Source of the DNA: Alphaproteobacteria bacterium HGW-Alphaproteobacteria-18 | GTDB lineage: Bacteria > Pseudomonadota > Alphaproteobacteria > Caulobacterales > Hyphomonadaceae | Direction: 5' to 3' | Length of the DNA: 64,000 bases | Assembly: GCA_002841155.1 (NCBI GenBank) | Contig: PHEH01000005.1 | Span: 124,001-188,000 of the forward strand | Part shown: in pieces, positions 34,311 through 36,843 of the stretch | Layout of the letters: the number at the start of each line of letters is the position of its first letter | How positions within the stretch are numbered: the stretch's first letter is position 1 | Notes under the pieces: model-generated | Seen by the model: the letters and a program-made list of their open reading frames with translations, nothing else | Told to the model about the DNA's origin: nothing | The model's database searches: none | Translations under genes and position numbers: made by a program

Positions 34311-34616
34311 CTAGCGGCGTTCAGTGTGCACTTCGGTCAACAGCGGGCTGCCGATGGAACTGACCGCGCGGTCCATTGTCTTGCGAACGCAGTAGGTCTG
34401 GGCATAGCCGCCCGCAAACCGCATTTGCGCATGTTCAGCTGCGCAGCGCTCTGCGACCTGATTCCGGATATGTTCATACTCCGTTTCGGCGCCAGAGCGA
34501 CTGGAGAGGTTCTTGCCGGAGTAGCTCACTTCCATCTTGAAGCTGTCGCTAGCTGCAAATGCGGGGGCGGAGAGAGTGGCGGTTGCGAGCGCCGTTGCGA
34601 TGATGAAGCGTTTCAT
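34311..34616 (-). CDS. UrcA family protein
   Basis: Signal peptide; VSYSGKNLSSRSGAETEYEHIRNQVAERC pattern. Confidence 0.7.
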   Translation of the reverse strand: MKRFIIATALATATLSAPAFAASDSFKMEVSYSGKNLSSRSGAETEYEHIRNQVAERCAAEHAQMRFAGGYAQTYCVRKTMDRAVSSIGSPLLTEVHTERR

Positions 34617-34698
34617 GGGCGTTTCCTGAAAGTTGCAATTTCTGGGAGAGGGGTGTGCAGCCGGGCCCAGGGGGAGAGCCCAGCTGCACGTTTGCCGC

Positions 34699-34884
34699 TT
34701 AGTTACGGGCTTCGCGGCGATTCTGGCGGCGGCGGCGAGCGACCAGGAGGTTCAAGCGGCCCTCCGAACCTTCGTCATTCGCCGGCAGGGACCGGATGGC
34801 GGCATCGCCGGGGACGAGGCCGTAGGCCAGGACACCCTCAAACACCATGGGGCCGTTGTCGTTGAGACGGGGGCGGGGGGACAT
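34699..34884 (-). CDS. Small Arg-rich hypothetical protein (61 aa)
   Basis: RBS agaaggag upstream of ATG; promoter and operator cluster upstream. Confidence 0.6.
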   Translation of the reverse strand: MSPRPRLNDNGPMVFEGVLAYGLVPGDAAIRSLPANDEGSEGRLNLLVARRRRQNRREARN

Positions 34885-34958
34885 GACTTGATACTCCTTC
34901 TTGCTGGTCAGTTTGTCCGTTTTGTCGGCGGCGGTCTGTTTCCGTTGCCGACACGAAC

Positions 34959-34987
34959 TAGATAGACCAGCTATTATTGTTTTTCAA
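34959..34987 (-). promoter_or_regulatory. Sigma70-type promoter for the 34884 gene
   Basis: Minus strand TTGAAA (34982-34987)-N17-TATCTA (34959-34964). Confidence 0.55.
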
Positions 34988-35100
34988 TATGAAATTATCG
35001 AAAAAAAATAAATCCAAATAAAATCAAGGCCATAAAATCATCGAAAAACGATAATTATCAGATTTTGGGATCTTTCGAGAAGATTATCGCAATTCGATAA
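34974..35100. promoter_or_regulatory. Cluster of four TTATCG-N5-CGATAA-like operators
   Basis: 34974-34990 TTATTG-TTTTT-CAATAT; 34995-35011 TTATCG-AAAAA-AAATAA; 35038-35054 TCATCG-AAAAA-CGATAA; 35084-35100 TTATCG-CAATT-CGATAA. Confidence 0.75.
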
Positions 35101-35114
35101 GCGCCGGGAGCGGC

Positions 35115-35261
35115 TTATCGCTTCCGGCGGCAACGGTCCGAGCAGTATTTCACCTCGTCCCACACCCGCTCCCACTTTTTGCGCCAGGAGAAAGGCCGCC
35201 CGCAGGCGGCACAGACTTTCGAGGGCAGGTTTGCTTTACTGTGGGAGGCGCTATGAGGCAT
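35115..35261 (-). CDS. DUF2256 family protein (absent from ORF track)
   Basis: [48 protein letters not shown]; overlaps photolyase stop by 11 bp. Confidence 0.9.
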
Positions 35262-36843
35262 GGGCGCGTGAAGCCGGGACCAAGCCGAGATCAAAGCTCA
35301 GCTGAGCGGACTCTGAAACCTTCGGCGCAGCTTTCTTGCGGGCAGGCTGTTGGCCGCGAAATGGAATGCCGGCCCGTTTGCTTCCGTGACGCATCTGGAT
35401 CTTGCCGGCATGCTCACCATGCCCGGCCCGCTTTCTGACGGCCGAGATCCGGCTTCGGGCCTCTTCGGCCGCGGCCATATGATCCACGATCCGCATGGGA
35501 TAGGTCTGGCCCAGGACAATTCCGGCCCGCGCGCGCACCGATGCGGGCGCTTCCCAGGGCGCGTGCAGCCATTCGTCCGGCAGGCCGGCAAGCTCGGGTA
35601 CCCAGCGGCGGATGAATGTGCCGTCAGGATCCTGGTCACGCGATTGTTTGACGGGATTGTAGATGCGGGGTGTGTTGATGCCGGTGGTGGCAGATTGCAT
35701 CTGCGCCTGCGGATAGTGAATGCCCGGCTCAAAATCCGTGAACAGGGCCGCCAGTTGTTCTGCGGGCTGTTTCCAGTCAAGCCAGAGATGGTGGGACGCA
35801 AAGCCCATGGTCATGGCGCGCATGCGGAAGTTCAGCCAGCCTGTCTCCCTCAACGAGCGCATGCAGGCGTCGAGGAAAGGAAAGCCGGTGCGCCCTTCGA
35901 TCCAGGCGGCGAGACGCGGATCGCCTGCCGCCGGCTCCGGGCGAAGTCCATCATAGCCAGGATGCAGATTGCGGGATTCGATGGAGGTCTGATCCTCGAG
36001 CTTCTGGATGAAATGGCAATGCCAGTACAGCCGCGAGATAAAGCTGCCGATCGAGGCGGCAAATCCGGTGTCGCCCGCGCGGTCATGCCCGTCGAGCGAC
36101 TTCCGGGCTGCCTGCCAGGCTTCCCGGATCGAGACCGTGCCGAAAGCCAGATGAGGCGACAGGCGCGAGCAGGCATCCGCCGCAGTGAGCGGGCTCGACA
36201 TGTCCCTCTGATAGGAGCGGCCCCGGTGTTCGAGGAAGCTGCGCAGGCAGTCTACGCCAGCCATGCGCCCGCCATTCTGGCGCTGGGGACAGTCATCCGG
36301 GCCAAGGCCAAAATCCTGCGGCAGGGGCCATTCTTCGCTTTCCGCGCCTGCCGGTTTGAGGGCCTCCGGGGCCACCAGCCTGGGGCGGCGCATGAAGGCT
36401 TCCCACTGGTTTGCCCAGCCGTCGCGCGATTTCAGGGCGCGCTGAACGCCGTTCTGGGGCTGCTCGCGGACAGAAATACCGGCATTGCGTGCCCAGCGGC
36501 GAACGGCCCGGTCGCGCTCAAACGTCCATTGCAGACCGGTTTCCTCATGCGCATGGATCGCCTCGATCCCGTGCTTCCGGTGAATGGCGGATAGGACGTC
36601 AATGGCATTGCCTGTGCGCACAATCAGGCCGGCGCCCCGCGCCTTCAGGGCGGCGTCCAGTTCTGCAAGGGACTCACGGACAAAGTCGAACTGCCGGCGG
36701 GAATGCTCGGGAAGGGCCCAATAGGAGGGCTCGAAGATGTATAGTGGCAGGATGGGCGCGCCGCTCGCGACGGCCGCCGCCAGGGCTGCGTGATCGTGAA
36801 CACGCAGATCCCGTTTGAACCAGATGACATGCACATCAGACAT
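35251..36843 (-). CDS. Cryptochrome/deoxyribodipyrimidine photolyase family protein
   Basis: [86 protein letters not shown]. Confidence 0.93.

Follow-up and report, generated by a model that had tools for sequence, protein, structure and literature searches.

In the 64-kb window, i.e., the whole stretch of DNA analysed here, an array of four 17-bp palindromic sites lies between a DUF2256 gene and a predicted two-gene transcript that encodes a 61-aa protein and a UrcA-family protein. The features of this locus are listed in Table 1.

Table 1. Positions of genes, promoter elements and operator sites at the locus (window coordinates).
Feature	Position	Strand	Remarks
UrcA-family protein gene	34311-34616	-	Second gene; signal-peptide-like N-terminus; TIGR04433 UrcA_uranyl
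RNA hairpin between 61-aa gene and urcA	34655-34689	-	Compensatory changes
61-aa protein gene	34699-34884	-	First gene of predicted transcript; conserved PAND motif, Arg-rich C-terminus
Predicted 5' untranslated region	34885-34952	-	Conserved TGTCGGC start, small GC hairpin; RBS AAGGAG at 34894-34899
-10 hexamer TATCTA	34959-34964	-	N17 from -35 in 30/30 loci; predicted start near 34952
Operator site 1	34974-34990	-	TTATTGTTTTTCAATAT; minus-strand reading ATATTGAAAAACAATAA; holds TTGAAA -35 hexamer, centre ~-31
-35 hexamer TTGAAA	34982-34987	-	Inside site 1; TTG unchanged in 30/30 genus loci
Operator site 2	34995-35011	-	TTATCGAAAAAAAATAA; minus-strand reading TTATTTTTTTTCGATAA; exactly 21 bp from site 1, ~-52
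Operator site 3	35038-35054	-	TCATCGAAAAACGATAA; minus-strand reading TTATCGTTTTTCGATGA; 43 bp from site 2
Operator site 4	35084-35100	-	TTATCGCAATTCGATAA; minus-strand reading TTATCGAATTGCGATAA; perfect palindrome, 46 bp from site 3
DUF2256 gene	35115-35267	-	PF10013, 81.7 bits; stop codon borders array; upstream neighbour, not obviously regulated

The 61-aa gene had been regarded as an orphan in a sequence-only reading of this DNA, a description that no longer holds: it is present in 33 of 37 genus genomes, has a counterpart in the sister genus, and in each of the 30 loci inspected is directly succeeded by a UrcA-like gene with a signal peptide. Its substitutions fall mostly at third codon positions and the core PAND...LLV.RRRR is conserved, while searches of Pfam and NCBIfam returned no family match for the protein. 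The earlier assignment of the downstream gene to the UrcA family is borne out by a TIGR04433 score of 58.2 bits (cut-off 25, E 6.8e-16). In the hairpin that separates the two genes, seven of the ten pairs have changed on both sides with pairing kept, and the loop is usually CCCCTG. Since no T-run follows, a role in stability or translation seems likelier for this hairpin than that of a plain terminator. At the 5' end, the predicted transcript start TGTCGGC and the adjoining GC hairpin (window 34925-34952, minus strand) are strongly conserved, with little covariation.

All four palindromes were found exactly where the sequence-only reading had placed them, including the offsets of 21, 43 and 46 bp. 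Their shared geometry, also proposed there, stands for the four sites as such, except that site 2 is degenerate in its right half, AAATAA; the CGATAA half of that site is conserved. As for the additional half-site proposed near 35115, its TTATCG takes in the stop codon of the DUF2256 gene and has no counterpart in relatives, so that a larger array extending to it was dropped. The marked AT-richness of the region was confirmed, with a GC content of 32% in the 158-bp array stretch versus about 60% in its surroundings. Within this stretch, four sites lie at most one mismatch from TTATYG-N5-CRATAA, whereas 20,000 dinucleotide shuffles of it reached two sites a single time and stayed below that in all other cases; on these grounds, a chance origin of the array from AT-richness was rejected. 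Over the entire window, the strict pattern with three mismatches yielded 9 matches against 13.4 expected, i.e., no enrichment, so that the signal of the array is a local one. With a weight matrix derived from genus orthologues, the array sites are the top four matches in the 64 kb, scoring 23.4-26.4, and the next match reaches 12.6.

Each of the 30 genus loci examined has the array upstream of its 61-aa gene, and the spacing of 21 bp between sites 1 and 2 is invariant. Sites 2 and 3 are separated by 43 or 44 bp in most of these loci and by 56 bp in one; site 3 falls below the matching cut-off in four of the 30. Site 4 occurs in part of the genus only, 46-47 bp from site 3, in the clade with the 61-aa protein. 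The information content per position is 1.83 bits for site 2 and 1.54 bits for site 1, compared with about 0.9 bits for the flank and the 4-bp gap. In many loci, a CCTTGA block (window 35024-35029, minus strand) stands upstream of site 2, at a distance of 12 bp. In the sister genus, the 61-aa counterpart (e.g. ...AANDNTGTWKPTLLVQRRRRQNRLAGRV) lies in the order DUF2256 - array - gene - phosphatase, with a TTGAAA-N17-TAGATC promoter and sites 21 bp apart; there is no evident urcA at this locus. The neighbouring DUF2256/photolyase genes were also considered as targets and rejected, as the array follows the 61-aa gene when the upstream neighbour differs; control of these genes is further disfavoured by the direction of the promoter, which points to the 61-aa gene.

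The TTGAAA-N17-TATCTA promoter that the first operator had been said to overlap was confirmed, its TTG and 17-bp spacing being invariant (Table 1) and its -10 hexamer varying among TATCTA, TATCTT and TAGATT in the genus. The upstream half of site 1 is always TTATTG-like and never TTATCG in the 30 loci, by which the TTG of the -35 hexamer is preserved. With this TTG and the N17 spacer both fixed, the centre of site 1 lies near -31 in every genome, a geometry that fits the suggested occlusion of the -35, which would be classical repression.

Genome-wide counts were obtained by pattern searches with TTATYG-N5-CRATAA, allowing one mismatch, and the reversed pattern served as control. The host genome contains 18 motif places versus 2 for the control, and six genus genomes together contain 98 versus 13, confirming genome-wide enrichment of the motif. 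This enrichment reaches through much of the order, in which 80 of 249 genomes carry tandem arrays and the reversed pattern gives none; such arrays also stand before DUF2807, HlyD and PspB-like genes. Fourteen matched regions outside the array were inspected, and 12 of them lie before genes and 2 within coding sequence. The matches are mostly upstream of envelope genes. Sites precede the genes for DUF2807 (two sites, 22 bp apart), DUF805, TM2, SppA peptidase and an ABC transporter, as well as a histidine kinase/lipoprotein pair, a PspB-like small membrane protein region and others, and a secreted-protein gene of the host is preceded by three sites 21 bp apart. One of the 12 regions (C27), like one TonB-receptor site, may be under the control of a different regulator. 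A further host sequence, TTATTGCATTGCAATAA (L038:2001-2017), also satisfies the relaxed pattern; in its form, however, it resembles a palindrome of another kind, which may belong to another regulator. At another locus (L037:2001-2062), three sites are arrayed between argD and the hisZ side, with a good promoter, TTGACG-N16-TATTGT, directed away from argD. At other targets, the site overlaps the -35 (HlyD promoters), fills the spacer of TTGACA-N17-TCATAT (DUF2807) or covers the -10, although these promoter positions are consensus guesses and not every site overlaps a good promoter. The overlaps at several promoters point to repression by occlusion. FNR/FixK sites, TTGAT-N4-ATCAA, were dismissed as the identity of the motif because both half-site and spacing differ.

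No regulator had been named for the motif in the sequence-only reading; comparative evidence now points to an HTH_26 protein encoded with a DUF2975 protein. Among the first 30 arrays fetched regardless of gene content, 10 are located at DUF2975-HTH_26 operons, all of family f3. The host has one such operon, with HTH_26 at G000:C6:8298-8513 and DUF2975 upstream of it (35.3 bits), divergent from rdgB, and the rdgB/DUF2975 intergenic region holds the site TTACCGAATAACGATAT. In the genus, this own-operon site is single and a weaker match (score 18.7). When a matrix trained only on the 61-aa arrays was applied to rdgB/DUF2975-HTH_26 intergenic regions, a significant site was detected in 18 of 18 testable Caulobacterales regions (p <= 0.015 each, 15 of them at the 0.0025 floor), several as 21-bp pairs. 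In Caulobacteraceae, the regulon is nearly absent, yet a strong site is kept before the DUF2975-HTH_26 operon.

Beyond the order, most loci likewise carry the site ahead of the operon. For 80 named loci from several phyla, of which some metagenome-bin names may be wrong, the upstream score is at least 16 in 74 and the downstream score in none, and a DUF2975-like ORF is present in 78. As the loci compared here and within the order are related, these counts and those for the order are not independent tests. The non-metagenome records among them include Pontibacter, Chitinophaga, Kineosporia, Isoptericola, Lysobacter, Tepidanaerobacter and the planctomycete Pla163. Across the 80 loci, neighbouring sites at HTH_26 promoters are most commonly spaced by 21 and 22 bp, and the recognition region ANLSILKTGKA is nearly invariant. 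A few relatives have no obvious site at the HTH_26 operon. Judged by the HTH_26 protein, Hyphomonas oceanitis is the nearest named relative (91%). As HTH_26 occurs in 25 of 25 order genomes tested, its presence or absence cannot confirm the assignment, which draws instead on the conservation of sites at the promoter of HTH_26 itself.

The predicted structure of the HTH_26 protein (pLDDT 76) matches CylR2, VanUg, SinR, controller proteins and phage repressors. Against CylR2 (1utx/2xiu), the model gave a TM-score of 0.88 by target length (E 0.002-0.006) at 15-16% identity in the fold match, and VanUg (3tyr) was the one match with E <= 0.01 when solved structures were searched by sequence. CylR2 of Enterococcus faecalis is a repressor whose induction requires the membrane protein CylR1 (PMC3709268), which makes CylR1/CylR2 the best functional analogy. 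Both systems would pair a small HTH repressor with a membrane protein, with a predicted fold near that of CylR2; however, the identity is low, and the regulon and the signal differ. Phage 434/P22-type repressors, SinR and C.AhdI-type controllers share the Cro/C1 HTH fold predicted here and tandem short palindromes near the core promoter. Unlike these, the HTH_26 protein is about 80 aa long without an extra oligomerisation domain, is chromosomal, has a membrane partner and shows a pair spacing of 21-22 bp.

The gene pair itself is of the YozG/YoaS type, which combines an HTH_26 (PF13443) Xre protein with a YoaS-like/DUF2975 membrane protein, YoaS being presumably a DUF2975 protein; it differs from YozG/YoaS as published in the operator and the envelope-biased regulon proposed here. 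A survey of 2009 tabulated the Xre/YoaS-like association and described the YoaS-like member as 'a membrane protein, likely permease' (PMC2701414). In the open-access literature, no operator, regulon or function was found for the HTH_26/DUF2975 pair.

Taken as a whole, the array is quite probably the cooperative multi-site operator of a self-regulated, Cro/C1-type HTH_26 repressor encoded with DUF2975, as judged from comparative sequence evidence. HTH_26 would probably bind as a dimer at every TTATYG-N5-CRATAA palindrome of 17 bp. Sites 1 and 2, 21 bp or two helical turns apart and thus on the same face, would form the core cooperative pair, which sites 3 and 4 may reinforce. Occupancy of site 1 would hide the -35 and thereby switch off the 61-aa Arg-rich/UrcA transcript. 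Autorepression of the DUF2975-HTH_26 operon would be part of the same scheme, as would repression of roughly a dozen further promoters, most of them envelope-related. DUF2975 probably senses a membrane condition, upon which repression would be relieved, much as is proposed for the action of CylR1 on CylR2.

The same HTH_26 regulator might instead work as a dual switch of the kind seen in restriction-modification controllers: it would activate from the distal positions (site 2 at about -52 and those farther out) and repress once site 1 is also occupied. The small Cro/C1-type fold is predicted to match the controller proteins C.BclI and C.AhdI, the sites are in tandem at two-turn spacing, and the distal sites are conserved though occlusion alone needs none. 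Yet, an activator seems unnecessary because the -35 TTGAAA is near consensus, with a TTG shared by all genomes; moreover, the sites at other promoters often overlap the -35 or the -10, and we consider such a switch rather unlikely.

Still less probable is a different regulator that binds the motif and has the DUF2975-HTH_26 operon as one target among others. The assignment of HTH_26 is comparative, and the Caulobacterales site lies between the divergent rdgB and the operon, where it could serve rdgB. However, the association recurs in unrelated contexts, namely at f3 paralogue operons away from rdgB, in other orders and in other phyla. It also persists in Caulobacteraceae as nearly the sole site, and the motif is missing at an HTH_26 paralogue (L147) whose recognition region differs. 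Control of the urcA transcript by UzcR, with the palindromes incidental, was rejected as extremely improbable: Caulobacter urcA is indeed induced via UzcRS (PMC8963506), but the published UzcR half-sites are absent here, CATTAC-N6-TTAA having no match within two mismatches near 34700-35200, and the palindromes are strictly conserved. HTH_26 and the UzcRS system of Caulobacter crescentus would both control a urcA-family gene, the latter as a two-component regulator with its own motif.

With the self-regulated HTH_26 repressor as the preferred reading, a broader proposal can be made, toward which the comparative data lean slightly. HTH_26/DUF2975 may constitute a membrane-coupled repressor module across several phyla, with the near-constant operator WTATYG-N5-CRATAW. 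In Caulobacterales other than Caulobacteraceae, this module may have been widened to govern an envelope-maintenance regulon comprising UrcA, DUF2807, DUF805, TM2, SppA, HlyD-type proteins and the conserved small Arg-rich protein. The gene pair has been known since 2009; as far as we have found, the operator and regulon proposed here appear new. HTH_26/DUF2975 pairs occur in many bacteria, and the literature offered neither a function nor a target sequence for them; a candidate target sequence is now at hand. Since the operator is shared by Alphaproteobacteria, Bacteroidota, Actinobacteria and Planctomycetes, the family becomes testable and its regulon predictable in many genomes. In Hyphomonas-like bacteria, one putative membrane-associated switch would bring together a new small protein and a set of envelope genes that are little understood (UrcA, DUF2807, DUF805, TM2). 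A distinct arrangement is seen in Sphingomonadales (L186, L194, L195, L199, L201 and L225), whose HTH_26 promoters carry three strong sites spaced by about 16 and 29 bp and thus differ from the 21-bp pair.
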